Origin: Romanomermis culicivorax
Lineage: Eukaryota; Nematoda; Enoplea; Mermithida; Mermithidae
Direction: 5' to 3'
Assembly: GCA_963922205.1 (NCBI GenBank)
Contig: CAWUHX010000068.1
Location: 248,001 to 312,000, forward strand
Length of the DNA: 64,000 nt
The notes below the pieces were generated by a model, which was not told where the DNA came from, did no database searches, and was given only the letters and a program-made list of their open reading frames with translations. Shown piece after piece: positions 12,194 to 61,012 of this stretch. Numbering within the stretch: position 1 is the first letter of the stretch; each line of letters begins with the position of its first letter. The translations under genes and the position numbers were made by a program.

Positions 12194-12407
12194 GACCTGA
12201 AAATATATAAGATTAGATAATTTTACTAATTTTATAGGCTTTGTTTGCAGTAGTGTTGCCAGGTAAACATTTATAAGGTGCACTGAATACGAGGAAAAAG
12301 ATTTCGGAGGAAATAAAAAATTAAGACGTGTTCGGAAAACTTCAGAATAAATTCGAATGCAAAAAAATTAGATTTCTCTACTTGGTATTGTTAACTATAA
12401 GCATACT

Positions 12408-14849: not shown

Positions 14850-15430
14850 TATAAAGGTTCATTTTCCAGCGTTCTAGAATATCAATTTTCCAGAAAAATT
14901 TTTGGCGCTAGGCGCCGAACAAGTTACTCATACCAATCTTTCCATTTTCTCTTCAAAACTCAAAAAATTTGGTTTCAAAAGCCTGAAACCGACGCGAATC
15001 GAATGGAATAGAAGAAACCATTTTTTTGTATTTTTTCCGATAAAATTAAGCAAATTTATTGATTTTAGAGTGAACAACCAAAAATTTATCTGTGCAACCA
15101 AAGTTTTTCCCAAGTTGCACATTGGAACCTGGCCTTTGCAGAAAAAAAGCTCTGTGGTTGAGTTCATACCTTTATGTCAGATTATCAGCATACCTGTAAG
15201 CATACATGTAATTGGGGGGAAGTGCTATGGGAACCCCCCCACAGAAATCGTCGACCATATGGCTAGCCATTGGGCGACCCCCCCTGTATTTTCCAATCCT
15301 ATGGCTAGCCATATGGTAGCCCTAGGGACCCCCATAGTTTTAGTGAGAAAAATACTGAAAAATGTCAATTTTTGAACAAAAAAGGTCAAAAACGTCAATT
15401 TTCTCGGCGCTTCGCGCCATAAGTACGTAT
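14850..15430. repeat. Remnant of GC-hairpin-core element family
   Basis: Carries TTCATTTTCCAGCGTTCTAG, then AAAAATTTTTGGCGCTAGGCGCC (14893-14915), and a second core CGGCGCTTCGCGCC near 15405. These are the same modules seen in the hAT-like elements elsewhere. The ORFs crossing it have no domain. Confidence 0.6.
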
Positions 15431-15611
15431 TTTATCATTTTTTAGACAAAAATTACTACTTTTAAACCCTTGTTCGGAAATTTTTGATGGAAAAAATCGA
15501 ATTTGTTTTCCTTCTGGGACCCCTCCCCCCCAAAATTTTGGGAATTACTGACCCCCGCCCCCAAAAAGGTGCTCCAACCCCCCCCCCCCCAGACCTTGGA
15601 GCTCCGTTACA

Positions 15612-15806
15612 TATATGCCTGTAAGAGGTCCGACCAGTTGGGGGGGGGGTGGGGTAAATCCGAAAATTCTCCCCAAAAAAGGCCGAAAAACATACACTTT
15701 TTGGCGTATTTTTTTACTTTTTTCCAAACTGGGAGGGTTGGGTTTATGGTTGGCCAAGTTGGGGGGGGTCCCCGCAACCCCCCCCCCCCGCCCAAGTACA
15801 GGTATG
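15612..15806 (+). mobile_element. G-tract MITE (TIR CATACCTGTA), copy 1
   Basis: Left end ATGCCTGTAAGAGGTCCGAC, then CAGTTGGGGGGGGG, a central block with CCAAAAAAGGCCGAAAAACA and a right end AAGTACAGGTATG. No matching target duplication is visible, so this copy is partly rearranged. Confidence 0.75.
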
Positions 15807-16582
15807 ATTGTCAGCTATTCAGAATAAGCTTTAAAATTCTATCTTTCATTGTTATCTTTTTATCACGGTTTATTGTTCGATTTACTTTTTATGTCAAAAA
15901 AATTAGGTTGTTTTATGTCGTCAAAGAACTAAAGATATATAGGTTATGCTGTTGAATCATTCTCTTGCTCATGCAAACTCACTTAAATATTCATCTATAA
16001 ACAGGTCATTAGCTCGAGTCTTTTTGCAAAAAATGTCGGTTTATTGGCGGAATAAGATGCAAGTTAATGAGAAACGTTCAAAAATCACATCAGAAATGAT
16101 TTTGAGCGATTTTTAAGCAAGGAAACAAAAAAAATTGATTTTTCCTCTTGAGGAAAATTTTTTTGGGGGTTTTCCTCAAATGGGGCAAAAAGTTTTGAGC
16201 AAAAAAAACACTGCTTCCCCACGTCCATTCAGGTGATAGTTGGATAGTTCGTATTCCGGAACAGATAGCTCTAAAGATACTAAATATAGCAAAATAATAA
16301 AGTTAGATTTAGCTTTTGTCACGTCCATGAGCTTTTCTGTATTAGTCGTATTTACTCTTGTATTTATTCGCATTTAATAAATTTCTTTCTTTCAGAATCA
16401 GCATTCTTTTTTTCGACCAGAAAATCTAAGTTTCGTGTGGTAGAGCCCAGTAGGACGTAAAATAATTCACGCCAAATGAGAAAACCCGCCCTGAAAAGTT
16501 CCGTAACTATCATAGACGAATTTGAAATTTTCGGGTACAGTAAACCATGATACCGAAATGAAAAAACGCATGTGATATCCAA

Positions 16583-16806
16583 CATTACCTGTAAGACCTC
16601 TGACCAGTTGGGGGGGGGGGTAAATCCGAAATTTGGGGGGTCTAAAAAAGTCGAAATTTTTCTCAAAAAAGTGCAAAAACCATACATTTTTTTGGAAATT
16701 TTTTTAATTTTTTTCCAAGCTGGGTGGTTGGGTGATGTTGGGTACATGGTTGGCCATGTTGGGTGGTCCCCCCCCCCCCCAACCCGCTCCCCCAAGTACA
16801 GGTATG
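16583..16806 (+). mobile_element. G-tract MITE (TIR CATACCTGTA), copy 2, perfect 8-bp TSD
   Basis: Element of 224 bp flanked by ATATCCAA on both sides (16575-16582 and 16807-16814). Ends are CATTACCTGTAAG and AAGTACAGGTATG. The paralogous host repeat at about 20520 lacks the insert. It contains runs of 10 G and 10 C, and no coding capacity. Confidence 0.92.
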
Positions 16807-17001
16807 ATATCCAAATATCGCAACGCTATGTTGAAGACAGCAAATAATTATGCAAAATTCACTATCGTGCGCTTAAATTGGTTGCTTCTTCGTTGAGATT
16901 TATGTAATTATCCGGAATATTTCTTATTTCGTTATTACTGTAGCAACGCTGTAACGAATTTTAATTTTTCCGCTGATAGATTTACGTGTCCTAACCGTGA
17001 G

Positions 17002-17051
17002 TCCAAGCCTAAGCCCAGGCCTAAGCCTAAGCCTGAGTCTAAGCCTAAGCC
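17002..17051 (-). repeat. Interstitial telomere-like hexamers (TTAGGC)n
   Basis: On the minus strand the tract is eight in-phase hexamers, four of them exact TTAGGC and the rest one or two changes away (TTAGAC, TCAGGC, CTGGGC, TTGGAC). TTAGGC is the nematode telomere repeat, whereas arthropods typically use TTAGG. It lies in host repeat H. Confidence 0.8.
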
Positions 17052-17155
17052 AGAAAATTTTCCAGAAACAACTGTAAAAATCAATAAATTTTTTCGACCA
17101 ATCAAAATGATGACAGATCTCGCTTCGCAATGCTTTGGTGGTGACTGGTGGGAAA

Positions 17156-18436
17156 CACTGTTTTTTTCCACATTTGCATTAAATGTGGAAAAAATTTTTG
17201 AGGTCTTTCCACAAATGTGGAAGAAAAATTTGGGGTTTTCATATTGAAAAGACTTGAAATATTAAAATTCATATTCATATTGAAATTTCATATTCAAAAG
17301 ACTGAAAAGACTGAAAGATTGAAAAGACATTTTGGTACATTTTAGGAGGTCCGAATCTCAAAATTTTGTAATCATCATTAATTATTAAGCAGCTCAGGCG
17401 CGGCTTTTATCATGTCTACCTTCATTTATCACTTAATCTATAATAGTTTTCATAAATACCTGTAAGACCTCCGACCAGTTGGAGGGGGGTAAATCCGAAA
17501 TTTTGGGGGGGTAGGAAAAAGTCGAAATTTTTCCCAAAAAAGGCCAAAAAACATACACTGTTTTGAAAATTTTTTTAATTTTTTCCAAACTGGGGGGGGG
17601 TTGGGGGGGGAAATGATTTTGGGTACAGGGTTGGCCGAGTTGGGGGGTCCCCCCCCCAACCCCCGCCCCAAGTACAGGTATGTTTTCATCATCTTAAACG
17701 TATTATCTCATGTTTTAATTGGTAATCTTCAATATTTTATCATGATATTTAATGAAGATTCGCATTTTTTCCTTTTGAGAAAGATCAATACGTCAAGTCT
17801 CTACGCTTTTTGATGCGATTGTTTCTTTGCTAACGTAAAATCAATTCAAAAGCTTCCTGGAAATATCTTTCGGAAATTTATACTTTTCTGACTTCTTACT
17901 CATATATTTTCGACCAAATTCATGAGAGTTTACAAAAAAATTACAGATTTTAAAATTTTTCAAGTAAAATTTTAGAAATTTCGACTTTTGAACACAAATT
18001 CGGAATTTAATTCTTGAAATAAATGTTCGGAAAATTGATTTTCCAGCATCCCAGAATGTCAATATACCCCAAAAATTTTCTATTGCCATCTTTTTTGGGC
18101 TTTCACTTGTCATCATAGAAGACTTGACCATCGATTTTTCGTGTAATTCAAGTCAATTATGCTCTTGGGTAGTTTGCTAGAAAATTTGTTCAACAATGCT
18201 TGTAGATTAGGCTTTAAAGTCGAACATTTCAATTTTTCTTCAATTTTAATGAATTAGCTTCTCTAAAAACACCGGAAAGCTTGAAAAAGCTCAAAAACAG
18301 TGCGATGAAGCGTCTGAGAGCATTTCTAAGCGAAAAAACGAGGATTTTTAGACGAAAAAAATTTTTCCAGATGCGGAAAAAAAATTTGACCCTTCCCCAC
18401 ATTTGTGGAAAGAAGTTCGTAGAAAAAAAACAGTCG
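17156..18436. mobile_element. hAT-like element family D, copy 1 (TIR CACTGTTTTTTTCC)
   Basis: Left end CACTGTTTTTTTCCACATTTG followed by palindromic CCACA...TGTGG segments; right end CCACATTTGTGGAAAG then GAAAAAAAACAGT. The interior matches 53947-56981, including GGCGCGGCTTTTA.CATGT.TACC and AATGAAGATTCGCATTTTTT. No transposase is present. The target duplication is unclear. Confidence 0.65.
17455..17682 (+). mobile_element. G-tract MITE copy 3, inside family D copy 1
   Basis: 228 bp flanked by TTTTCATA (17447-17454) and TTTTCATC (17683-17690). The second copy of the host (about 56255) has the uninterrupted site agttttcatcatcttg, which proves the insertion. Confidence 0.92.
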
Positions 18437-18440
18437 TGGG

Positions 18441-19433
18441 CAGTGTTTTTTTTGTGCCAAAACATGGTTTTTGGCACAAAAAAATTTGGAATGGCACAAA
18501 AAATTTTGAGCGTTTGTGCCAATTGGCACAAAAAATTTGGCTGGTCAAACATTAAATTTCCTTAATTTTTAGACGTTTTAGGGGCTGAAAATGCAAAAAA
18601 TTTTCGGCGCTTCGCACCGCGCCGAGTCAATGGATATAATATTTCCTATTCGTATATTTGACCCGAACGCGAACGATTTCTCTTCGAACAGTGTATTGGT
18701 ATTGTTGCAGCAAACCTTATAGGCTGTCTAGACTGATGAGTGAAAAGAAATTCTGAATATTCTCTGCAAATTCCAGATTCGGATTTAAAACAGGAATTCT
18801 TACTTTTTGTGTTTGATTGATTCTAATAGAAAAATTGATATCGTTGATAATCGTACAATGTTTAGATCGAAAATTTACACAATTTTTGACTTTATTTTCT
18901 CTAGTCTTTACATTGTTGTTAAATATAGATATTTTTCGTAGTCGAAAATTGAATCAATTTGAACTTCATGTACAATTCTAGAGCTAATTAAATTTTTTCA
19001 GCATTCCATTTATTGGGTTTTCGTGAATAATTTTGTTGCATAGTTTTCTTCTTGTCTCACTGACATGGTTAGCTGAAAAATAGGTTGGGCACGATTTTCA
19101 CAAAAATAATGTGTTAAACGTTAAATTTTTATCAAACTTTTGGCCTAAAACTTTTCCGCAGTTTTCATTGAGGTAAAGTGGGGTGACTTTGATCAGAGTA
19201 TAGCATTTGATAACTATTTGAGATCAGCACGTCATTTTCGCTGTGTAGGCAACCTCACAGCAGGGGTTATCTACTCAGCAAAAATGACCTGCTGACCTCA
19301 GATAGCTATCAAATGCCATACTACTCTGATCAAAGTCACCCCACTTTACCTTATGTTTCTAGCAAAAAAATTTTTTTTGTGCCATTGGCACAAATTTTTT
19401 TGGCCTCTTGTGCCAATTGGCACAAATGTCCGT
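18441..19433 (+). mobile_element. hAT-like family 1, copy A (GTGCCAATTGGCAC subtermini)
   Basis: Begins CAGTGTTTTTTTTGTGCC, with GTGCCAATTGGCACAAA palindromes near both ends and the GC hairpin core at about 18602. It is colinear with copy B (19640-20447). The right end is truncated after AAATGTCCGT. It contains the palindromic MITE at 19173-19352, which copy B lacks. Confidence 0.8.
19173..19352. mobile_element. 180-bp palindromic MITE (AGGTAAAGTGGGGTGACTTTG)
   Basis: Two arms of about 75 bases, AGGTAAAGTGGGGTGACTTTG...ATTTGATAACTATTTGAG and its near-complement, surround a short centre. The empty site is visible in copy B (ttttcagtatgtttc at about 20342). A second copy, split by another transposon, lies at 57181-58315. 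The superfamily cannot be assigned. Confidence 0.88.
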
Positions 19434-19639
19434 CCCACGTCGATTCACGGAATAATTGAATAGTTCGTATTCTGGAACATATAGCTCTAAATATACTACA
19501 CATCGTAAAAAAACAAAAGTAGATTCAGAAACAGCTTTCTTTTTCCTATCAGAAAATCTATGTTTCGTGTGATAGAGTTCAGTGAGACGTAACCTGATTT
19601 ACGCCAAATGAGAAAATCTGCTCTGAAAAGTTCCGTAAC

Positions 19640-20447
19640 CAGTGTTTTTTTTTTGTGCCAAAACATGGTTTTTGGCACAAAAAAATTTGGAATGGCACAA
19701 AAAAATTTAAGCGTTTGTGCCAATTGGCACAAAATTTTTGGCTGGTCCAACATTAAATTTCCTTGATTTTTAGACGTTTTAGGCGCTGAAAAAGCCAAAA
19801 ATTTTCGGCGCTTCGCGCCGATTCAATGAATTTCCTACTCGTATTTGGACCCGAACGCAAACGATTTCTCTTCGAACAGTGTATTAGTATCGTTGGAGCA
19901 AACTTTAGAAGCTGTCAATGACTAATGAATCAAAAGAAAATCGGAATATTCTCTGTTCATTCAGTCAGATTCGAATTTAAAAGTGAAATCCTTACTTTTT
20001 GTGTTTGATTGATTCAAATCGAAAAATCGATATCGTTGATACAATGTTTCGACCGAAAATTTACACAATTTTAGACTTTATTTTCTCTAGCCTTTACGTT
20101 ATATAGATATTCGCAGTCGAAAATTGAATCAATTTGAACTTCCTGAACAATTCTAGAGTTATTCAAATTTTCTCAGCATTTTTCAAGTCGCCGTGAATGA
20201 TTTTCTTGCAGTTCTTCCTTATTTCACTGTCGTGGTTAGCTGAAAAATAGGTGGGGCATGATTTTTACAAAAAATTAATGCGTTAAACGTAGCCTCAAAT
20301 GGGTATATTATCAAACATTTGGCCTAAAACTTTTCTGCGGTTTTCAGTATGTTTCTTGTAGAAAAAAATTTTTTGTGCCATTGGCACAAATTTTTTTGGC
20401 CTCTTGTGCCAATTGGCACAAATGTCCGTGCACAAAAAAAAACGCTG
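19640..20447 (+). mobile_element. hAT-like family 1, copy B, intact with 8-bp TSD
   Basis: 808 bp starting CAGTGTTTTTTTTTTGTGCC and ending GTGCACAAAAAAAAACGCTG, flanked by identical TCCGTAAC (19632-19639, 20448-20455). Subterminal GTGCCAATTGGCACAAA palindromes occur at both ends, and the GC hairpin core CGGCGCTTCGCGCCG at about 19805. No ORF resembles a transposase, so the element is non-autonomous. The CAGTG end and 8-bp duplication point to the hAT superfamily. It sits in host repeat H copy 2. Confidence 0.93.
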
Positions 20448-20749
20448 TCCGTAACTGTCAAGGCGGTATTTGAAATTTTTGGCTACAGTAAACTATGATA
20501 CCGAAATGAAAAAACGCGAGTGATATCAAGATGTCCCAACGCTATGTTGAAGACAATTGATAATTATGCAAGATTCACTATCGTACGCTGAAATTGGTTG
20601 TTTCTTTGCTGAGATATATGTAATTGACCGAAATATTTTTTTAATTCGCTAATACTGTAGCAACGGTATAACGAATTTTAATTTCTCCGCTGATGAATTT
20701 ACGTGGTCCGTGCACAAAAAAAACGCTGGCGGTGGGAAAACGAATGGAA

Positions 20750-28984: not shown

Positions 28985-31900
28985 ATGGTTTGTCATCGTT
29001 ACACCCTTTTGTGGGGTAGCCTGGTGCTCATCTGCACGATGCCAAATTTCGTATCGTCGCATAAACAGCGAGTGTCGGCGTCGTCGTCGTCGGGTAGCGG
29101 CGAATATGGAAAGACGAAACCGAAACCACCTCGTAGGACGACCCTGATGGATGTGGCGATTCCCACAGCCGAACCAATGGTGGTCATGCCAGAACCGGAA
29201 CCCGATCAAGGTGAGCTGGACATCTGCAGTACGTGCTATGACCTACAATATAACCCTGTTTTTTATAAGTCTCAAATTCACACATTGTCCCGTGGACAAG
29301 TTTGGTCCACAGTAGTTCCGTGTCAACTTCTGTGCTATCCGAAATGATAAATGTAGCGATCCCAAATACAATGAAGTTTCTTGTCCATGAGCAGTAAGCA
29401 GAATAACTCTGCTGCATCGTGAATTTGTTGACCGAATGCTTGTTAAAAATTGGGTCTTGGTTGGCTGTGACTTGCGGTTTAGCAGGAAACTCAAGCTCAT
29501 TTTTAGAGGCCTTGTAAGGACAGAGTAGCTGACTAGTGTACGCGCAGATACTGCTGACCGGGGCCCGAAGGTAGTATAGCTTTAGTGCAATACACCCCTG
29601 ATATTCTTTACTACTGTGTAACTCTTCTGTTTCAGATATTTGTTTCGGCCAACCTGACGGCGATTACGCTAAATCAGCTTGCGAAAACGAATACTACTCT
29701 TGCGTGGCAAATAGCAAAATCGTTCGATACTGCCCCGGAAAATTGGTCTTCGACGCATATTACACGGATTGCGCCGACAAATCCAAAAGCAAAGGCTGCA
29801 CTGGTAAAGATCGACCCGCGCCCGAAGATCTACCTGTGGTCTCCACTTATCCGCCACTGTCTGGTAGGTTTTCACTGATGGAAACAAGAAGATGGTGAAG
29901 ATAAAGACACTTTGAGATATGAGGATACTGTTGAGATATAAGGATACTATTGAGATATAAGAATACTGTCGAAATGAAGTATGAGGATACATTGTTGAGG
30001 TATGAGGATACATTGTTGAGGTATGAGGATACATTGTTGAGGTATGAGGATACATTGTTGAGGTGTGAGGATACATTGTTGAGGTGTGAGGATACATTGC
30101 TGAGGTATAAGGATACATTGTTGAGGTATGAGGATACATTGTTGAGGTATGAGGATACATTGTTGAGGTATGAGGATACATTCTTGAGGTATGAGGATAT
30201 TGAGGTATGAGGATACATTGTTGAGGTATGAGGATACATTGTTGAGGTATGAGGATACATTGTTGAGGTATGAGGATACATTGTTGAGGTATGAGGATAC
30301 ATTGTTGAGGTATGAGGATACATTGTTGAGGTATGAGGTTGTTGAGGTATGAGGATACATTGTTGAGGTATGAGGATACATTGTTGAGGTATGAGGATAC
30401 ATTGTTGAGGTATGAGGATACATTGTTGAGGTATGAGGATACATTGTTGAGGTATGAGGATACATTGTTGAGGTATGAGGATACATTGTTGAGGTATGAG
30501 GATACATTGTTGAGGTATGAGGATACATTGTTGAGGTATGAGGATACATTGTTGAGGTATGAGGATACATTGTTGAGGTATGAGGATACATTGTTGAGGA
30601 ATGAGGATACATTGTTGAGGTATGAGGATACACTGTTGAGGAATGAGGATACATTGTTGAGGTATGAGGATACATTGTTGAGGTATGAGGATACATTGTT
30701 GAGGTATGAGGATACATTGTTGAGGTATGAGGATACATTGTTGAGGAATGAGGATACATTGTTGAGGGTAAGAGGATACACTGTTGAGGAATGAGGATAC
30801 ATTGTTGAGGTATGAGGATACATTGTTGAAGTATGAGGATACATTGTTGAAGTATGAGGATATTGTTGACTTCGATTTTCTGCAGACTTCGATTGCTCCC
30901 ATAGAGCTGACGGTCTCTATGCCAACCCTCTCCTCGCTTGCGACTCGGCTTATTACGCTTGCAGCGGCGGCAAAGGTCACAAATTAGCATGTATCGCCTC
31001 CCTTTATTTCGACGCTGAACTACAAGTTTGCGACGTTTTCGATAATGTGGAAGCTTGTTCGGGCAAAAAACGAACCCCTTCTCCAGAACCCGAAGTTTGG
31101 ACGGCAGCAATGGAAGTTCCAGTCGATTTTGATTGCTCAGATTTGCCCGATGGGAACCATCCAGATCCGAATTCGGCCCCGACGCGCTGCAGGTTACTCT
31201 TACATTACTCATTGTGTAGGCGACTCTTGATCTGAAATCGCAGATTCTTGGGTCTCTGAAGATGACAGATTTTTCAAAAATTCGATTTTCAAGATTTCTT
31301 GGGTTTTTCACTTAATGGCACTTTTGGGTTTTTCAAAGGCATGCCCCTTATCTAGTGTGTGATCAGCAACTCACTGCTTCAACTTTCACAGCCATGTCTA
31401 CTATGCTTGCTTTGGCGGCAAAGCTCGCCAACTTGAATGTTACGGCAACCTTTTCTATGACCCTGATAATGACCTCTGCGACCTCAACGAATTTGTCGTC
31501 GCTTGCGGTGGCCAGCCTCGCCCGCAGTTACCTGTCCCTGTCACATCAGAGCCGGCCGTTTCAGCTTTTGATTGCTCGAATTTGGAAGACGGTTTTTATG
31601 CTAATCCGGACGAACAATGTTCTGCTGCTTATTACAGTTGCGCCGGCGGTTTTGGCCGTATTTTGGCTTGCCCCGATGGATTGGTTTTCGAACCAGAATC
31701 TTTGAGCTGCGAACCCCGCGACTCTGCTTTCGTTTGCACTGGTGTTCGACCGACCTCTCCTTTGCCAGAGGATTGGACTGCAGGGCCGACATTTCCACGT
31801 AATTTTTCAAGGGCCTAGCTGTAAATGTCTTTGGTCTGTAGTTTCATTTCTTTGACAAAATGACCAAATCTTGGAATTCCACTCTATGGGAAACTTGTTT

Positions 31901-34900
31901 GCAGTACATGTGGGGCGGGCAAAGAAACGTTCTGCACACCTGTTTTTCCTACAAAAAATTCACAATTATCAAAAAAAGCTGTCTTGGGGGTGGCCTGGGT
32001 CTCAGGTGAGGAGTTTTACCACCCTCTACCGTGCATGTATGAACTTAATAGAATTTGCGTATGTCTCATGCTCGTTTTTTTCACAGCCGTGGCCTTCAGC
32101 TGCGAAGGTCTCGAAGACGGGCCACATGTCAATCCTGCAACAACTTGTAGCCAAAACTTTTTCTATTGCTCTAATGGTGTGGCCACTGCCGAAACATGCC
32201 CCGGCCGCCTCTACTTCGACGCCTCGAAAAAAGCTTGCGACAGTTATATCAATATTTTTGACTGCACTGGTGAACTCGCACCGACTACAGTTTTGCCTGC
32301 TGATCAGGCACAATGTACGTAAAGTCTACAATAACCATTCTCTTCTCACTGTTTTGGTCTCCAGGTGTCAATGCTGACTTTGATTGTCGGAACCATGCTG
32401 ACGGTCTGTACCCAGATGACAAACAACCTTGCTCGCACCGTTACTTCGCCTGTACTGCCGGATGCTCTGTTGAAAAAATCTGTCCATTAGACTTGTACTT
32501 TGATCCGGAACTGAGCGTTTGTAATCGCTTCGAAGACACCTTCGTCTGCAGTGGTCATCGTCCGACACCTTATGTTCCTGTAGAGAATGAACGTGAGAAC
32601 ACTGTATTTTGTGTTTTTGGTCGGAATGTCCAAAATTTTCACTACAGTATACCCTTATTTGCTGCATCATCTTCTTTCCAGCTGCTAGTCGTCGACCTCA
32701 AGTTTATGACTGCTCCGACAAGCTGGACGGCTTGTACGCCAACCCGGAGAGTGCTTGCTCTAATTTCTACTACGTTTGCAGCAACAAAGTCAGTGATATC
32801 CTCTTCTGCGCCGATGGTCTATTCTTCGATTCCGAAAATAATGGCTGTGACCGTTACGTTAACGTTTTTGCTTGCAGTGGCCTGCGACCTAGGACTGTGA
32901 CGCCTGCTGCACCTCATGAACCAGTGACGTTTGCCCCAAGTAAGACTTGTCACACGGAAAATCGGATTTCATCAATTCTTTTGTTGGTCTATCCTGTTTG
33001 GGGGCATGACATATAAATTCTGCCATGGGTGAGATAGACAAAAAAATTAAAAATCAAATCAGCATATTCCAGTCAAATCAACATATTCCTTAGTCAAATC
33101 AAAATATTCCTCTGTCAAATCAGCATATTCTTCATTCAAATCAGCATATTCTTCAAGCTGCATACCCTCGGTTAGTATGTGGAGTCAGCGCTTGCTTATT
33201 GTGGATCAATGAGGTTTGGCGAAAATCCATGGGGGGTCAATGCCTCAACCCTCCTACGTTGATGCCTGCTTTTCACCCACATTGAGACTCTTTTTGCAGT
33301 TGATTTTGACTGCACTGGTAAAGCCGATGGTGATTATGCTGATCATCGAGAAGCCTGCAGTAGCATATACTACACTTGTTTCGGCGGTATTGGGCAAATG
33401 TCGGAATGTCCCGCAACAAATCTTGTCTTTGATCCCGAATTAGACTTGTGCGAAGTTCGTGAAAAAGTTCCCGTCTGTGGTGGCATCCGTCCTCTTCCTG
33501 AAGATATTCCCATCGTTCAGCCTGCTGGTAAGCTGACTCCCTTTCCGCATTGTTCTTGCCATTTCCGTGTACCACTTTCTTTAGAACAACCTTTTGACTG
33601 CTCCAAGCTTCAAGATGGCAATTACGGCTCCAGTGACTGTGATAACTTGTACTACTCTTGCGTTGGTGGTGCTGCATTTCCCATCCACTGCCCCAGCGAT
33701 TTATTTTACGACATTCAGAACAACGTTTGTGATTGGAAGCAGTTTATTGTAAAATGTGGCGGCGCCCCTCGGCCAGCGACCCCGGCTGAGCAGCCTCAAC
33801 CTCAAGCTGAGCCTGAGCCAGAACCTGAACCTGAACCAGTGAGCAAGCCAGACACTTGACCTCTTACTTTTGCACTTTTTGCATTGCTTCTTTTCTGGCC
33901 TTGTTTTTAGCGTCTCCGTCGTCATGCCACCTCGACTAGTGCATCCAGTGACAAGTCTCTGCATAAACATCACGCTCGCAAATCTTTGTCCATGCCCCGT
34001 CGTCCTACCCCAGAACCCGGTATTGCTGAGCCAGCTGCAGAGCCTGCACCGCGAGATCTGCCTGCCATCAGGCCTCCTGTTTATCGACGCACGACCCGCA
34101 AGTTGCTGCCTCCACCTCCGGCCCAGCCACCACGGAAGCCAGTTACCTATGGTAAACGTACGACCGCCAGACCCGTGCCTCAACAGCCTCCCAAAACTTA
34201 CCATCGGCCAAGGCCTGTCGTCGCCCAACCAACAACACACCTCCTTCCTCGCATTTATGGGCGACCTGTTCCCACCATTGTTAGGCAGCCTGTTGCATAC
34301 AGAAAAATTACAATGCGCCCACGTCCTACTTTATCGACAACAAAGCGTGTTGCAGCTGACGTTCCAAAAGTCTACCGTCCCAAGTTCAGGCCGGCTTCTT
34401 CCCTGATCAAAGGTGAGGCCAGTGCACAACACAGGTTGCTTAGGTTGACGTCCATCAGGATGGTCTGGTCCTTTTGGGCCGGGCACCTCACTTGATTTTA
34501 GCTTCTCTTCTGTACAAATATGTATGTTTTCATCTTTTCTACCCAGCCAAGCCTGCACCTGCTTCTCCGGCTGTATCAGCTGAGACATCTGCGTCTTCGG
34601 AAACTACGCAGTACAAACCCAAAACTCGAGATCTGCCAATGATGCGCGTAGCCGCCGTCCGCACCCATTCACTCGTCACTCGATTGACCCCTGCTCCTGC
34701 ATCATACCACAAGAAAGCTAGGCGTCCAACTTTACCGCCGATGACTAGACCCACTCCTCCAGCTGATGTGCCGAAGGCTTATGTACGACATTTGCCTGCT
34801 TCACCAGTTTTACCAGGTAATTTTTGTACCTATTTTCTTCGACCCTAGTAATTAAATTATTGTACATCAGGAAAAATCAAGCTACAGGTACACGACTGCT

Positions 34901-47129: not shown

Positions 47130-49143
47130 CGTAGAATTAATGATGCTAAATATACGTTATACTTTTCTGGACAATGTTCTACCTTCCAAATTTATTATGA
47201 TCCAATAAGATTTTATGTCGTTCTAAGTACAATTATCACTTCAAAATAATATGTAATATTTGCAAAAATATTCATGCTTTGCAAACCATAAAGCTGTGGG
47301 TTTCTAACAATTTTGCAAACAAGTACTAGATTTTCAATTAAACTTCTCACAGGGACTGAAGACCTGTGCGCATAATCACTCACTTTTGACTGTTTTTCGA
47401 ATAAAACATTTTATAGTCAAAAGGTCGTGTAAACGATTTCGGCAATGCTAACTTTTGTCATTTCCACTTCGCAAGCATGTTATTAAAAAAGGGACTATAG
47501 TCGCACTTGTCAGGGGAGTCGTTTACACTAAAATTAGTAATCAACAATTTCAACTTATTCTATGTCTGATCACAGCAATCATGAATGCTACGAAAATATG
47601 GAAAGATGTATTTGCCAGAATTCGCCCAGAATTCATATGCTCAGAAACAGATCTCATGTTGTTTCCGATCAATTAGTCAGGACAATTCACTGAATTTCAG
47701 AGCTTGATACCTTGGGGAATGTTACAAACGGCTTACAAAGCTAGTAAAAAAGGAATGCTCCTAGAAATTGCGTAGCAGTTTCGAGCTAATCATTGACACA
47801 CTCATAAAACACAGTCTCTCAGACCTCAAGCTCAAAAAAGTGTCATGATGGGTTAAGCCATGAAGAATACGCAGTTTTTTATCTGATTCACATACATTAC
47901 AAACCAAATAATTCCTCCTGAACTTTTAGGACGAAATTCCCCGATCAAAGTACCCCATGTCTGTTCGACTTTTTTTAAAGAAAAAAGGTATTATACATGC
48001 AACACTTGGCTACTGTTGCAAACTTCTTTGAATAACGGAATGCTTAAACGAGATAATTTTTTAAAATACTTAAATGACTTATAGACTGTTTCTCTTGATG
48101 CTTCAAACTATAAATCATTCAATTTGAAATGATAGACTCAGCGAAAACCAAAAAAAGGCAGTTAAATTTTATACGCAATTTCTGCTTAGTGGAAAATTTT
48201 GTGTTGTCCACTGTCGATTTGTACAAAACTGCGTCGATATATGATTGCCACTCGAGAAATTTTGACCATTTAATCAGGTAACTGAAAGAAATTTTTAAGC
48301 TGCTCTGTTTGTCGCCCACTGACGACAAATTTTTTTCATTGATTACAGTAATAAGCTTACAAGTTTTTTCTGTATTAAACTTATTTTCGCGTGGTCGCTG
48401 CCTCGATCATTTCAAAATGAAGTGTATGGTATAACTGAAAAACAAACACTATTCCGTATTTTCGGCAGTTTTCTGCTAAAAGTCTCGTAAGATGAGATCG
48501 GGAGTTCGTGAGGCAACTAACTTCAATAACATTCTTTTACAGTAGATGCATTGTGTGAACGGTTTTGAGGACAATACTTACTTTAACTGATTACGGCAAT
48601 TTTGGTATTGTTATTGTCCATCCACTTAAAACAATACAACTGCATGTCGTATGCCCAAATCCACAGAGGGGCTCGAGCCCTCGACCCTCTGCATACAAGG
48701 CAGGCGCTAACCGAACCACGTGGATGATTCGGAAATTGTGGTTGTAATGATGGTAGTGAGTGCGGGGAATACCGCGTAATGAATAGCCAGATGCACAACT
48801 ACAACATGCACTATAGGCAGTTTTTCTTGAAATGCTTATCCAGTATAAGAATGGAAAGCAAGTACTATTTTATGCCTTTATCATTTCCTATTAAACTCTA
48901 TGTCGAATAAGACTGGAAATTTGTGAGCCTAGTCGAGTAAATCGTTTTAATTTTTGACTCAAAAATTCTACAGTAAATGAGTTGTGTAAACGATTGTTTG
49001 GAGCAGTAAATTTTTTATCATCTTTAAATTTAGAAGCATTTTATAAAAACACTTAATACAATTTACACGCGATAGAAAAACAGCTCCACTTGCTCATCTC
49101 TAATACTTTGTACTACTACTGCATCCTTTTCCATTATTGTGCC
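47130..49143. other. Intergenic with MITE 48811-49056 and a tRNA-like sequence
   Basis: A TATAGTCTG-family MITE copy occupies 48811-49056 (CTATAGGCAGTTTTTCTTGAAATG to TTAGAAGCATTTTATAAAAAC), and a partial copy lies at about 47370-47510. The remaining sequence has no recognised gene. Confidence 0.55.
48659..48725 (-). tRNA. tRNA-like sequence, anticodon TGT (Thr), short D-arm; pseudogene or SINE head
   Basis: On the minus strand a 7-bp acceptor stem ATCCACG/TGTGGAT (one G-T) encloses an anticodon arm CTGCCTTGTATGCAG with TGT in the loop, and a T-arm GAGGG-CTCGAGC-CCCTC. The B-box-like GGGCTCGAGCC is good. Total length is only 67 nt because the D-arm is several bases short, so a functional tRNA is doubtful; a tRNA-derived SINE or pseudogene fits. 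Confidence 0.5.
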
Positions 49144-53530: not shown

Positions 53531-53681
53531 CAGTGTTTTTTTGCGCCAAAACAGCGTTTTTTTGTGCACAGACATTTGTGCTAATTGGCACAAGAGGCCA
53601 AAAAAATTTGTGCCAATGGCACAAAAAATTTTTTTTAACTAGAGACATAACTGAAAACTGCGGAAAAGTTTTAGGCCAAGC

Positions 53682-53904
53682 CATACCTGTACTTGGGAGG
53701 GGGGGGGGGTTGGGGGGGGGGGTGGCCAACCCAGTACCCAAAATGATTTCCCCCCACCCCAGTTGGGAAAAAATTAAAAAAATTTGCCAAAAAGTGTATG
53801 TTTTTTGGCCTTTTTTGGGAAAAATTTCGACTTTTTCCTACTCCCCCCCCCAAAATTTCGGATTTACCCCCCCCCCCCAACTGGTCGGAGGTCTTACAGG
53901 TATG
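53682..53904 (-). mobile_element. G-tract MITE copy 4, perfect 8-bp TSD
   Basis: 223 bp with exact termini CATACCTGTA and TACAGGTATG, flanked by GGCCAAGC (53674-53681 and 53905-53912). Inverted relative to the other copies. Confidence 0.94.
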
Positions 53905-54199
53905 GGCCAAGCATACCTGTAAGACCTTCGACCAGTTGGGTGGGGGCACTGTTTTTTCCCCAAATCGTGCTTTTTCGGGAAAAAAAATCGGAAAAGGGAA
54001 AAAAATTTTGGGCTCTTTCCCCATTTGGGGAAGAAAATTTTGGGGATCGGATACAGAAAAAATGTATTTTGGTGCATTTTAGATAGAAGGTCATAATCTC
54101 AAAATTTTCCGGCGCTTCGCGCCGATTATAACTTTAATAATCATTATTATGCATTACTAACCCCTGGCGCGGCTTTTAGCATGTATACCTTCATTTATG

Positions 54200-56232
54200 A
54201 ATGAATGAATGAAATAATGAATGGATTTATTACTTGCATTAGAAAAAATAAACAACGATGACAGTCAATGGAAATAAATATGATTTGAGCGGTAATTATA
54301 AGAAAAGAAAAAAAAATACAAAATTGTTAATAGTAAACAAAATGCGAAAAAACCATATTAAAGATGTGACGATAGGCGAAAAATGATTACAGTATAAATC
54401 ATGCTGCAAGTAACAGGGAGCGCAGGTTACTATGCGTAACAGAACTAACGCGCCCCCCAAGATACCTTGAAAAATCTATTTTTGACACCATAGTTTTAAA
54501 GGCCTGTAGATTGGAAGAACTAATAACATCATTTGGGATGTCGTTCCATATGTTTACATATCTGTTGGAGAAATCATAAAGCCTTGCATTTGTTTTGGCT
54601 TTACCAGTAATCAGTTTGTAGTCATTTTTACGGCGAGTACAGTCAGAACTGCTGCTAATGAAAAAATCTGATGGTTTAAGGCAGGATTGGTTCTTAAAGA
54701 TTTGGAACATGAGATTTAATGCAGATAACAGTCGACGAACTTCTAGGCGTTCTATACCCAACTTTGATAAGCGCTGGTCTGGTCATAGGAAAGTTCACAC
54801 TTAAAACCAAAAATTCGCTTAGTAAACCTCCTCTGAACATTTTCAACTAAGTCGATATCAGAAGCATAATAGGGATTCCAAACAGTGGAACAATACTCTA
54901 ATATTGGTCTGACATAAACTGTAAAGGCACGGATAAGATTAGAGGCGTTACGAGAAGTAAATGTTTTCATTATCAAATAGCTCCGTTGGTAAGCCTTTTT
55001 AATTATATGATTGAGGTGATCCCTGAAATTTAAATTTTGGGAGATAAGTATACCAGGATCTCTAACGTGGATTGTTGCCGGGAATAACAGAATTACCCAT
55101 TGTGTAATTGTATTTTGGATTTGAAGAACCCAAATATAGAACAGTACTTTTTTCAGCAGAAATTTCTAATTACCATTTTTTGGACCAACCAAAAATTTGA
55201 TCAAGATCATCTTCGAGGATACGTTTGTTTCTGGAACAATTAAAGATCTTAACATTATCAGCAAAAAGATAGATATCAGATTTTAGATTGTCAGGGAGAT
55301 CATTGATGATCTTGATGCTGTCACTGAAATGAAAGATCTTGGTGTTTATGTTGATAAAAAACTCAGTTTTGTTCCGCACTGTGATTACATGATCAAGAAG
55401 GCTTCTAGGGTATCAAATCTAATTTTTAAATGTTTCAACTCAAATATAAATGAATTGAAAATCAGGGCATTTAAAACTTATGTTCGCCCAATCCTTGAGT
55501 ATGGTAGTCCTATTTGGAATCCTTCTCTAATGGGTGAAATACAAAGGGTAGAGAAAGTTCAGAGGTGGTTCACAAAACGATTATATGGTTTTAACTCTAG
55601 GAATTATCAAGAAAGATTGGAGTCCGCCAGTCTGCATTCTCTTGAATTTAGGAGAACTATAACTGATTTGTGCTATGTTTATTCTATAATCTGTAACAGC
55701 ATTCTGGACTCAAATAATTTTTTTGTTTACAGTAAATTTAATTATCGTACATATTAACAATCCATATAAATTATATAAGACAAAATTTCGTACACGATTA
55801 CTTGAAAAAGATTTTTGTAATAGATATATTGATACGTGGAATATGTTATCTAGTCATGTTACATCTGCCGTTAATGTTCATGTATTTAAAAAACGATGCA
55901 TTGCATTTTTGAGCTTATATCCGCGCGATACTAATCGCCTTTAAGCTCGTGATAATATATTTTTTTTTTCTTTATTCTTTTGTGAATGTATTTTTTCTAA
56001 TGACGAATAAACTATTCTTTCTTTCTTTCTTAATAACAAGAAAAGTGTAGGACCTAGAACACTACCCTGAGGAACACCACTAGAGACGGGAGCAAACTGA
56101 GAAGTGACATTATTGATACAGACTCTCTGGGTCCGAGTTAAGAGGAAATCTAAGATACACTTTTCAAGAAAGCCTGAGATACCATACAAGGTTTTCAATT
56201 TAAGCATCAATTTTTTGTGAGAAACGGGTCAA
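54200..56232 (-). mobile_element. 5'-truncated non-LTR retrotransposon (CR1/L2-Jockey-like), interrupted
   Basis: On the minus strand reverse transcriptase motifs run in order: SSGVPQGSVLGPTLFLL (about 56090), INDLP and the metal-site box FADN (expected FADD; about 55260), DLDQIFGWSKKW, then the C-terminal region YVRPILEYCSTVWNP and NVQRRFTKRIFGF (about 54850) to a stop at 54399. The 3' end carries a TTCA-type tail (54200-54225). Stops and frameshifts make it inactive. The host family D copy 1 has the empty site near 17429. Confidence 0.9.
55307..56034 (+). mobile_element. Second LINE 3' fragment, inserted inverted in the first
   Basis: Plus-strand KDLGVYVDKKLSFVPH, TYVRPILEYGSPIWNP and EKVQRWFTKRLYGFN are the C-terminal part of a related LINE ORF, ending near 55944 with the final stop and a 3' tail CTTTCTTTCTTTCTT at about 56016-56031. 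It splits the minus LINE between GPTLFLL and INDLP; joining the flanks restores that frame. Confidence 0.88.
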
Positions 56233-57180
56233 ATCATATAATCTATAATAGTTTTCATCATCTTGAACGTATTATCTCATGTTTTCATTGGTAATCTTCA
56301 ATATTTTATCATGATATTTAATGAAGATTCGCATTTTTTTAGAAAGATCAATACGTCAAGTCTCTAAGCTTTTTGATGCAATTATTTCTTTTCTAACGTA
56401 AAATCAATTCAAATGCTTCATGGAAATATCTTTCGGAAATTTATACTCTGCTTACTCATATATTTTCGACCAAGTATGAGAGTTTACAAATAAATTATAC
56501 TGGTTTTAAAATTTTTCAAGTAAAATTCTAGAAATTACGACTTTTGAACACAAAATTCAAATCTAATTCTTGAAATAAACGTTCGGAAAATTGATTTTCC
56601 AGCGTCGCAGAATATCAATACCTAAAAAATTTTTCCGGCGCCGGTAAAGTTAACATCCCTTTTGGGTTCTCACCTGTCATCATAGAGAACTTAACCATCG
56701 ATTTCTCATGTAATTCAAAGTCACTATGCTTTTGGATGGTTTGTTTGAAAGTTTGTTCCTATGCTTGTAGATTAAACTTTGAACTCGAAAATTTCAATTT
56801 TTTCCTCAATTTTAATGAATTAACGGGTCTGAAAACACCAGAAGGCTTGAGAAATCTCAAAAACACGTAAATAAAGCGTCTGTGAGCATTTTTAAGCGAA
56901 AAAAACGACTTCGGGAAAATGGAGAAAAAAATTTTGATCCCTTTCCATATTTGGGGAAAAGGCCCGGGGGAAAAACAGTGGTTGGGAGGGGGGGGGGGTA
57001 GAAAAAAAGTCGAAATTTTTCCCAAAAAATGCCAAAAAACATACACTTTTTGGCAAACTTTTTAAATTTTTTCCAAACTGGGGGGTTGGGGGGGTTGGAT
57101 GATTTTGGGTACAGGGTTGGTTAATTTGGGAGGGTCCCCCCCCCCAAGTACAGGTATAGCCAAAAGTTTGATAAAAAGTT

Positions 57181-58315
57181 AAGGTAAAGTGGGGTGACTT
57201 TGATCAGGGGCACCGTTTTTTTCCTCGAAGATTTTTTCCACATGAGAACCGGACCCAAAATTTTTTTCCTCATTTTCCAAAAATTTTCCTCATTTTTAAA
57301 AACATTTATGTGGCTACGGGTGTTTTTTTATGCATTTTAGGAGCATACATTTGTAGTCAGAAACCTGCAAAAATGAGGACAAAAATTGAGAAAATTCTGG
57401 TTATGTTAGTCGAAAAGAGCTCATGAGGAATATATTGGTATTCTATAGGAGCGGATAAAGCAATTTAACGATAGAGTTCTCATGAATATATCCGCTATCA
57501 ACATTTCTGTGATTCCGATTAGAATCATCTAATTTTATTTAATTCTTGGTCCGGCGCGGAGCGCCTTTTTGGATTTTCACTTTCTAAAACGCTGGAAAAT
57601 GAACGTTCATAACGTTCGGAAATAAATTAAAATCAGACGGATGAAGTGTAATTTGCTCCCAATTCCGGCGCGCAGCGCCGGAAAAATTTTTGGGTTTTTA
57701 TATTCAAAAACGCTGAAAAATAAATCTCTCCAACAGATAATTCGTGAACAAAAGTTTTAAAATCGCAGTCTAGAATGATGCCTTGAATTTCCACTTTCAA
57801 TAAACGCATAAGTTCAGATTGCAAACGTTTAAAAAATTCCAATCATCGAGAGAAAAAATTGAGAAAATTGATGAAAAATCTCTCTTTTCGGCGACATAAT
57901 TGACTGTAAACGATTAGAAAATGAAACGAGCTAGCTTGATTGATAGAAACTGTTGAGCATTAATTAGTAAGTCGAAGTAGATATGCTAACGGCCGCGCCT
58001 GATAGAATATAGTTATCATTATACCCATGACCGGCGCGAAGCGCCGAAAAATTTTGAGATTTTGACCTTTTAAAGTCAACCAAAACGCATCTTTTCGGTT
58101 AAGAGTTCCCTAAAATTTTTTCCACAATGAAAACCATTACCCAAAATTTTTTTCCTCAAAAGACCCCATTTGAGGGGAAAAAACGGTGATCAGGGGCGAC
58201 TTTGATCAGAGTGTCTACACAGCAGAAGTGACCTGTTGATCTCAAATAGTTATCAAATGCCATTCTCTGATCAAAGTCGCTCCTTATCATAGTCACCTCA
58301 CTTCACCTTATATTG
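57181..58315. mobile_element. Palindromic MITE copy 2, split by a hAT-like element
   Basis: Left arm AAGGTAAAGTGGGGTGACTT (57181) and right arm CAAAGTCGCTCC...CACTTCACCTTA (58315) match 19173-19352; the 978-bp insert separates them. Confidence 0.88.
57211..58188. mobile_element. 978-bp hAT-like element (TIR CACCGTTTTTTTCCTC), perfect TSD
   Basis: Flanked by ATCAGGGG on both sides (57203-57210, 58189-58196). Ends CACCGTTTTTTTCCTC and GAGGGGAAAAAACGGTG. Three GC hairpin cores at about 57550, 57665 and 58030. No transposase. Colinear with 60058-61012. Confidence 0.92.
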
Positions 58316-60057
58316 TTTAACGCATTAATTTTTTGTAAAAATCTTGCCCAACCTATTTTTCAGTTAACCATGTCAGTGAGAAGAGAAAAAACTGTGCAAC
58401 AAAATAGTTCACGAAATCCCATAAAGGAATGGAATGCTGAGACAATTTAAATAGCTCTAGAATTGTTCAGGAATTAATTCAATTTTCTACTACGAACGAA
58501 TATCTATGTTATGTATATTTAACAACCATGTAAAGACTAGAGAAAATAAAGTCGAAAATCGTGTTAATTTCTGATCGAAACATAGTGCCATTATCAACGA
58601 TATCGATTTTTCTATTTGAATCAAGCAAACACAAAAAGTAACAATTTCAGTTTTAAATCCGAATCTGACTGAATGAAGAGAGAATATTCAGAATTTCTTT
58701 TCACTCATCAGTCTTGACAGCCTAAAAGTTTGCTGCAACGATTCAAAGAGAAATCGTTCGCGTTCGGGTCAAATAGACGACTAGGAAATATTATATTCAT
58801 TGATTCGGCGCTAAGCGCCGAAAAAGTTTTGCATTTTCAGCCCCTAAAACGCCTAAAAATCATGGAAACTTTATGTTTGACCAGTCAAAAATCTATGCCA
58901 ATTGGCACAAACGCCCAAAATTTTTTCTGCCATTCCAAATTTTATGTGCCAAAACATGGTTTCTTGGCACAAAAAAATTTGGATTGGCACAAAAAATTTT
59001 GGGCGTTTGTGCCAATTGGCACACATTTTTTGACTGGTCGAAGGCTGAATTTCCTTGATTTTTAGTCATTTTGGGGGATGAAAACGCAAAATTTTTCGGC
59101 GCGAATATTACATACTTTCATCTGTCTAGAACTCGAGAGAATTGTATTTTAATAGTATATTTGTTTTATCGCAATAAACTTTAAGATTGTCAATGATGAT
59201 AAATAAATAGAAATGCTTAACTTCCACTGTTCATTCCGTGTGATATTAAAAGCCAAAATTTTTATTTTGATGTTTGATTAGAAAGAAAAATTGACATTGT
59301 TTGCACAATTTTTCAACCAAAAATTCACGCGACGTAACTTTCGGCTTGGTTTTTTTTCAGGAGAAAGCAATTATAGACATCCTTAATTTATTTAATCGGT
59401 GTTAAGGAGAAATTCGTCGTAGCCGAAAATTGAAGAAAAATATAATTTGCCTGAAAAATTCTTTAAAAATAATCTGAATTCTCGCAGCATCCGATTTCTT
59501 TTCGAATCAGTTTTTTTAGCGCACTGATGTGATTAGATAAAATAGAATTGGCACGGTTTTTATGCAAATTAGAGCTGTGAAAGTATCTTTGGTCATGTGT
59601 TTACTAAACTTCGGCATAAAACTTTTTAAAGGTTTTCAGTATGTTTTTAGGCCGCAAAATTTTTTGTGCCATTGGCACCAATTTTTTAGGCCCTTTGTGC
59701 CAATTGGCACAAATGTCCGTGCACAAAAAAAAAACACTGCGCTCCGCGCAACTTCCTTTTCTTCCCTCAAGAAAAGTGTTGCTTTCTGACTGAAAAAGTT
59801 CTGTAGAGGCGAACAAATTATGAGCCATTTCCCCATTCGATTACAAATTCGGGTAGTTCGTAGTCGAAAATGTGATTTTTTTGGTGCATTTTACATACTC
59901 CTGTGTTTTTCTCGCGAAATCGGTGCTTTGCTCATCTACTTTGTGAAGTAGAGAACTTAATCAGTCAAATTTGGCTGATAACAGATATTACAGAGATGAC
60001 AGCGGTGAAATTTCGCGGCAATTCATTGCTATTATTAATTTCGTTATATTCATTGGG

Positions 60058-61012
60058 CACCGTTTTTTTCCTCGAAGATTTTTTCCATGTGAGAACCGGA
60101 CCCAAAATTCTTTTCCTCATTGCCCAAAAATTTTCCACATTTTCAAAAACGTTTATAATGTGGCTACGAATGCTGTTTTCTACATTTTAGCAGCATACCA
60201 AAGCGTTTTGAAGTTGTTAAAGTCAGAAACCTGAAAAAATAAGGAAAAAATCAAGAAAATTCTGGTTAGGTTACTTAAAATGAGCTGATGAAGAATATAT
60301 TTGTGTTCTGCAGGAGCAGAGAAAGCATGTTAACGATAGAGTTCTCATGAATTTATCCGCTATTGACATTTTTGTGGTTCTGATTAGAATTAAACTAATT
60401 TTTCCTTAGTCCGGCGCGAGGCGCCGCAAATTTTTTTGGATTTTCACTCTCTAAAACGCCCTAAAATGAACCTTCACAACGTTGAGAAATAAATTCAAAT
60501 CAAACTAATCAAAGTAGAAAGTGATTTGTTCCTTATTCCGGCGCTCGAGCTTTGGAAAATAAATCTCTAACAGATACTCATAAACAGAAGTTGTAAAATC
60601 ACAGTTTAGAATGATGTCTCCAATTTCCATCCTTAATAAACGCAAAAGTCCATGTTGCAAACGTTTGCGAAATTCCAAGCATCGGAGAAAAAATTGAGAG
60701 AATCGATGAAAAATCTCTATTTTCAACGAAATACTGACTGTTAACGATTAGCAACTGAAACGAGCTAACTCGATTGATGGAAACTGTTGAACATTTATAA
60801 GCAAGTGGAGGTAGATATGCTAACTGCCGCACCCGATGGAAACTAGTGATTATAATACCCATGACCGGCGCGAAGTGCCGGAAAATTTTGAGATTTAATC
60901 TGTATAAAGTCTAGCGAATGACATCTTTCGGAAGTCCCCAAAATTTTTTCCACAATGAGAACCATACCCAAAATTTTTTTCCTGAAAAGACCCTATTTGA
61001 GAAAAAACGGTG
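60058..61012. mobile_element. Second copy of the CACCGTTTTTTTCC element, 955 bp
   Basis: Ends CACCGTTTTTTTCCTCG and GAGAAAAAACGGTG. Flanks TTCATTGG (60049-60056, plus one G) and TTCATAGG (61013-61020) match at 7 of 8. Cores at about 60411, 60540 and 60862. The ORFs inside have no domain. Confidence 0.88.

Follow-up and report, generated by a model that had tools for sequence, protein, structure and literature searches.

Does the segment at 53531-59739 hold a series of transposable elements (TEs) inserted one into another, and how much of the order of these insertions can still be read? The segment lies in a 64-kb window of DNA from the mosquito-parasitic nematode Romanomermis culicivorax, the whole stretch that was analysed, and is a real nested transposon stack in which six nested levels occur within 6.2 kb. 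The longest nesting chain runs from the family-1 copy 1b, the outermost host, through family-1 copy 1a, MITE2, element D and LINE A to LINE B. The participants (family 1, the G-tract MITE, D, a palindromic MITE, element E and two LINE lineages) represent at least six families. Removal of the inserts made the hosts continuous again, and they realigned with another copy in the window, as in a nested TE cluster. Every insert named in the initial annotation was located within the segment, whose outer element ends at 59739 and not at 59743 as given there. The focal stack contains no open reading frame of at least 150 aa, and no transposase was detected in it. Nesting is expected in R. culicivorax because its genome is rich in repeats, which make up about 47-48% according to the available part of the genome paper (PMC3890508) and 68.2% of the long-read assembly according to the available part of its report (PMC10879605); in the same part, the older short-read assembly is stated to have recovered TE content only in part (PMC10879605). 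The locus is an ordinary nested cluster that happens to be unusually legible; the process itself is well known, and nothing about it is surprising when taken alone.

The outermost host, 1b (plus strand), consists of a terminal fragment at 53531-53551 that matches the family-1 5' end and a remainder at 58955-59739 that resumes with CATGG and ends in AAACACTG. The rejoined copy aligned end to end with the reference at 19640-20447 (585 of 732 aligned columns identical), and the joint was gap-free. When the 21-bp fragment was compared with the reference 5' end, eight of the 127958 windows (21-base, both strands, 64 kb) reached its score, all of them at family-1 termini; this count includes 53531-53551 itself, and one site may appear in it in several overlapping frames. 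Copy 1a (53552-58954, minus strand) is inserted 21 bp inside 1b in the opposite orientation and, with its own inserts removed, is identical to the reverse complement of 19640-20447 at 656 of 730 aligned columns. The outermost layer had been described initially as one inverted family-1 copy interrupted by MITEs; the MITE interruptions of 1a hold, but there are two copies in opposite orientation. A single inverted copy was rejected as the outermost layer, as 58940-59733 aligns opposite to 53551-53679 and 58315-58977. The insertion of family 1 into itself is a layer that had been missed.

The 8-mers at the 1a/1b junctions are CGCCAAAA on the left (53544-53551) and TGCCAAAA on the right (58947-58954). 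About 30 bp are missing from the right (inner) end of 1a, and the heptamer GCCAAAA is common to the 1a subterminal sequence GTGCCAAAA and the 1b target. Because one terminus is missing and GCCAAAA is shared, the right boundary of 1a is ambiguous within 58947-58954, and the right junction 8-mer could originate from either copy. The presence of GCCAAAA in both 1a and the 1b target would make a deletion between direct repeats the simplest cause of the end loss. Kimura two-parameter (K2P) distances separate 1b from the other three family-1 copies by 0.222-0.237, whereas those three are mutually 0.100-0.109 apart; 1b is a distant member of the family, which fits its role as the older host.

The same arrangement could be read as one composite inverted family-1 dimer, with CAGTG ends on both sides, that moved as a unit. 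The unit 53531-59739 does have inverted ends (arms 53557-53632 and 59656-59731, 92% complementary), and a complete inner end is absent from 1a. However, the K2P distance between 1a and 1b (0.22) is about the same as that from 1b to the other copies, the 5' piece of 1b lies outside 1a at the left, 1b rejoins without a gap at CGCCAAAA and TGCCAAAA, and the outermost 8-bp flanks of 1b, which are those of the whole unit, match at only 5 of 8 positions (chance 0.037). We consider a dimer improbable and favor the insertion of 1a into a resident 1b.

Two G-tract MITEs interrupt 1a. MITE2 (outer coordinates 53912-57158, D included; plus strand) lies within 1a and is split by element D (53947-56980, plus strand, CACTGTTTTTTC...GAAAAACAGTG), as had been proposed: after excision of D, the rejoined MITE2 (53912-53946 and 56989-57158) realigned with the G-tract copy at 17455-17682 (182 of 197 columns identical). 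The MITE2 flanks, GCCAAG on the left and an intact GCCAAAAG on the right, are read as a single 8-mer whose left copy appears to have been shortened by two bases. MITE1 (53682-53904, minus strand; 198 identical columns among 211 aligned with the 17456-17683 copy) straddles the 1a/MITE2 junction, a placement that is suggested by its duplication. The initially reported 8-mer GGCCAAGC occurs exactly on both sides of MITE1 (53674-53681 and 53905-53912, 8/8; same-spacing chance 0.0028). Since both copies of this duplication show the shortened site, MITE1 would be later than the two-base loss. Rejoined D was identical at 802 of 922 aligned columns to the D reference from which a MITE had been excised, and its flanks, GGTGGGGG and GTTGGGAG, match at 6 of 8 positions (chance 0.008), as in a decayed duplication.

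A separate branch within 1a consists of the palindromic MITE (outer coordinates 57182-58308, E included) and element E (57211-58188, 978 bp, plus strand, CACCGTTTTTTT...AAAAAACGGTG) inserted in it. The rejoined MITE realigned with the copy at 19171-19351, in agreement with the initial description of a palindromic MITE split by a 978-bp element, both in reverse complement (110 of 123 columns identical) and on the forward strand (111 of 125), and its rejoined left arm matches the reverse complement of the intact right arm, which served as an internal control of the excision. E is flanked by an exact pair of the 8-mer ATCAGGGG, also noted initially (57203-57210 and 58189-58196, 8/8; same-spacing chance 0.0001), and is identical at 790 of 919 aligned columns to a second copy at 60058-61012. 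Fragments at 7869-8353 (minus strand) are about 70-86% identical to parts of E. No clear duplication was found around the palindromic MITE, with flank 8-mers matching at 2/8 and 3/8 at the two copies; shorter candidates (TA, TTA, TTAA) were weighed by eye. Both arms of the focal palindromic MITE contain a matching extra stretch of ~16 bp (57207-57210 with 58197-58208; about 58268-58290) that is absent from the copy at 19171-19351, as though the symmetry of the arms were maintained.

The reference copies come from a second nested stack at 15189-20736. The D reference (17156-18435, plus strand), initially given as uninterrupted at 17156-18436, belongs to this stack and is itself split by the G-tract MITE at 17455-17682. 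A family-1 copy, copy c (18441-20728), sits in the right duplication of the D reference; removal of copy c and one duplication restored GTGGGAAA on both sides (8/8). Copy c contains the palindromic MITE at 19171-19351 and an element F at about 19435-20706, the boundaries of which were set by eye. The family-1 reference (19640-20447, plus strand) lies uninterrupted inside F between exact copies of TCCGTAAC (8/8), and a related F copy near 16500 is unoccupied at this position, where TCCGTAAC is present once. At 618 bp, a G-tract MITE at 15189-15806 is almost three times as long as usual; its flanks match at 7/8, and it probably holds a further insert. The check proposed with the initial annotation, in which each insert is excised and the rejoined host is aligned with its reference copy, gave realignment of 1b, 1a, MITE2, D and the palindromic MITE. 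D preceded the family-1 copy c in the sister stack, while family-1 copy 1a preceded D in the focal stack; as the two families interrupt each other in opposite orders, their activities overlapped. Nesting at a single locus dates insertions, not families.

Ten DNA-element boundaries were scored at their final coordinates for a match between 8-bp flanks, after several had been shifted by 1-3 bases. Four matched at 8/8 (the family-1 reference, E and two G-tract copies), three at 7/8 (the other E copy and two additional G-tract copies), two at 6/8 (copy c and focal D) and one at 5/8 (1b). The same-spacing chance rates ranged from 0.0001 to 0.037 over the scored boundaries; with a slack of +/-3 bases, the chance was 0.002 for 8/8, 0.028 for at least 7/8 and 0.17 for at least 6/8. 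MITE2 and the D reference were scored apart, because one has an indel in one duplication copy and the other reaches 8/8 only with copy c excised. Ten rows of an initial 16-row flank list had scored at most 4/8, of which six stemmed from boundaries that were off by one to three bases. The other four were the D reference (copy c in the duplication and an end set two bases short), MITE2 (the two-base loss) and both palindromic MITEs, whose low scores are without explanation. These flanks bear on whether the stack is an assembly chimera of unrelated repeat copies. A repeat-rich genome, with 68.2% repeats in the long-read assembly as stated in the available part of its report (PMC10879605), favors misjoins, but misjoins would give neither matching duplications around inserts nor hosts that resume at the next base, and the flanks match at 7/8 or 8/8 at seven of the ten scored boundaries, including two in the focal stack. 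A chimera is highly improbable.

The innermost levels are two 5'-truncated LINEs. LINE A (54199-56232, ends +/- about 10 bp, minus strand) is a non-LTR retrotransposon within D, which picks up again at AATCTATAATAG after it; LINE B (about 55308-56031, plus strand, tail ATTCTTTCTTTCTTTCTT) is inserted in LINE A in the opposite orientation. The rejoined LINE A translation matched the Pfam reverse transcriptase (RT) family RVT_1 (PF00078) with 56.5 bits over profile positions 106-194 as one stretch (cut-off 29.6), the RT resuming beyond LINE B, while the separate pieces scored 19.6 and 24.6 bits, both under the cut-off. This rise upon excision of LINE B supports the earlier statement that D contains a LINE split by an oppositely oriented LINE and, along with the excised hosts that align with other window copies, the claim that hosts resume across their inserts. 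No RVT_1 match was found by Pfam in the surviving part of LINE B, and PF00078 is a precomputed annotation of two among its 12 protein relatives. LINE A resembles truncated non-LTR retrotransposons in its RT domain and in its truncation, and the LINE 3' tails are short repeats. No target-site duplication is visible at either LINE insertion; truncated LINE copies are often devoid of one, so that this absence does not decide the matter. The CR1-like tail and the absent duplications are presumably a lead toward the LINE clade and are taken only as such. Twin-priming inversion is a known LINE outcome that would give opposite orientations within a single LINE, but LINE B has its own 3' tail and duplicates part of the protein still encoded by LINE A (46% identity over the 98 aa retained in both), so that LINE B is a separate element and a 5' inversion of LINE A, ruled out by this overlap in coverage, deserves practically no credence.

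Successive independent transpositions, each into an element already present, very probably produced the stack. An old family-1 copy, 1b, would have been in place when 1a entered it in opposite orientation 21 bp from its end, after which about 30 bp of the 1a end would have been lost by deletion between the GCCAAAA repeats of 1a and the duplicated 1b target. MITE2 would then have inserted into 1a, its left duplication would have dropped two A's, and MITE1 would have entered across the 1a/MITE2 junction, copying the shortened site. Separately, D would have inserted into MITE2, then LINE A into D, presumably through target-primed reverse transcription, and finally LINE B into LINE A. In the other branch, the palindromic MITE would have entered 1a and E the palindromic MITE. 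The DNA elements have no long open frame here; transposases from other loci most likely mobilized them in trans. The nesting, the continuity of the hosts and the exact duplications are seen directly in the sequence, and the deletion mechanism, the LINE insertion route and the movement in trans are inferences from it. The mutual order of the MITE2-D-LINE branch and the palindrome-E branch is not readable; the relative chronology of at least six families that had been proposed therefore stands in the number of families, and its order is only partial. Divergence from the reference copies was not used to rank the inserts by age, because the distance that separates any two copies reflects how old the family is and not when the insertion took place: the D-D distance (K2P 0.144) exceeds that between MITE2 and its reference (0.081), though D is younger. 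With junctions mostly resolved to the base, the stack provides a clean worked example for the calibration of TE annotation in this nematode.

Several DNA elements landed close to the ends of their hosts. Copy c sits in the duplication of D, MITE1 lies across the first base of MITE2, and 1a is 21 bp inside 1b; further cases are F about 22 bp inside copy c and E and D, 29 bp and 35 bp inside their MITE hosts. Among 12 DNA-element insertions collected by hand, six are no more than 35 bp from a host end, where uniform landing would give about 2.1 (P 0.005), and the mean relative distance to the host end is 0.163 (P 0.018), in a post hoc test with the 35-bp limit set after the data had been seen, some boundaries (chiefly those of F) placed by eye, and both LINEs and the insert suspected at 15189-15806 left out. 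That these DNA elements preferentially target resident elements at their ends or in newly formed duplications is a doubtful proposition; if general, targeting would partly drive deep stacking, beyond repeat abundance alone.

A hairpin motif, GGCGC-N3-GCGCC, occurs at 10 sites in the window (7924, 14904, 15406, 19807, 54111, 57553, 57667, 58033, 58807 and 60413) and in at least three otherwise different families (family 1, D and E), with the D reference devoid of it at the matching place; it may be an internal motif for binding or folding that the families share. The window also contains a 21-bp minisatellite (29912-30869) of about 46 copies with 92% matches, ORFs for chitin-binding peritrophin (CBM_14) domains (32313-33859) and a tRNA gene (48658-48725, minus strand, 33.8 bits). 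Of five further ORFs in the window that were searched against Pfam, two contained CBM_14 and three had no match. The protein encoded at 11510-12283 (minus strand) has a sole match, an uncharacterised R. culicivorax protein (98% identity, 88% of the query covered), which places the window in this mermithid or a very close relative.

The hAT-like label for family 1, D, E and the G-tract elements is provisional, because it draws only on 8-bp duplications and short inverted ends, the stack having yielded no transposase. All four families show 8-bp target-site duplications and short inverted ends; CAGTG (family 1) fits the hAT terminal inverted repeat consensus, YARNG, and CACTG, CACCG and CATAC do not. 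P-MITEs of Anopheles gambiae share the inverted ends and 8-bp duplications, a likeness by structure alone, as described in the available part of the report (PMC1562414). Since 8-bp duplications fit both hAT and P elements (PMC1562414, same part), duplication length does not discriminate between them, for the G-tract MITE included. Among the matches listed in a literature search, no title concerned Romanomermis MITEs, and the families are not claimed to be unpublished.

Chronologies based on interruption have been built before: TRANScendence reportedly derives the order from a matrix of which element interrupts which. The copies of a maize double Ds are in inverted orientation. The 1a/1b pair differs from a double Ds in its K2P distance of 0.22, so it does not represent a recent hop into an own twin. 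As far as the available part of the Ac/Ds report extends (PMC3260210), maize Ac/Ds and the present DNA elements have in common non-autonomy, short inverted ends, 8-bp target duplications and copy-in-copy nesting, and they differ in end sequence from the 11-bp Ac/Ds end quoted there. That part further describes Ds-in-Ds nesting as rarer than the nesting of LTR elements, with no double Ds in B73, and chromosome breakage as a trait of double Ds (PMC3260210), whereas the present stack, in which no transposase was found, is known from its sequence alone. The REANNOTATE nested clusters, in the available part of their description (PMC2672092), have their insertion order likewise read from interruptions, so that there is no difference in kind; the present stack is a single locus of short DNA elements and two LINEs, resolved by hand and yielding a partial order.
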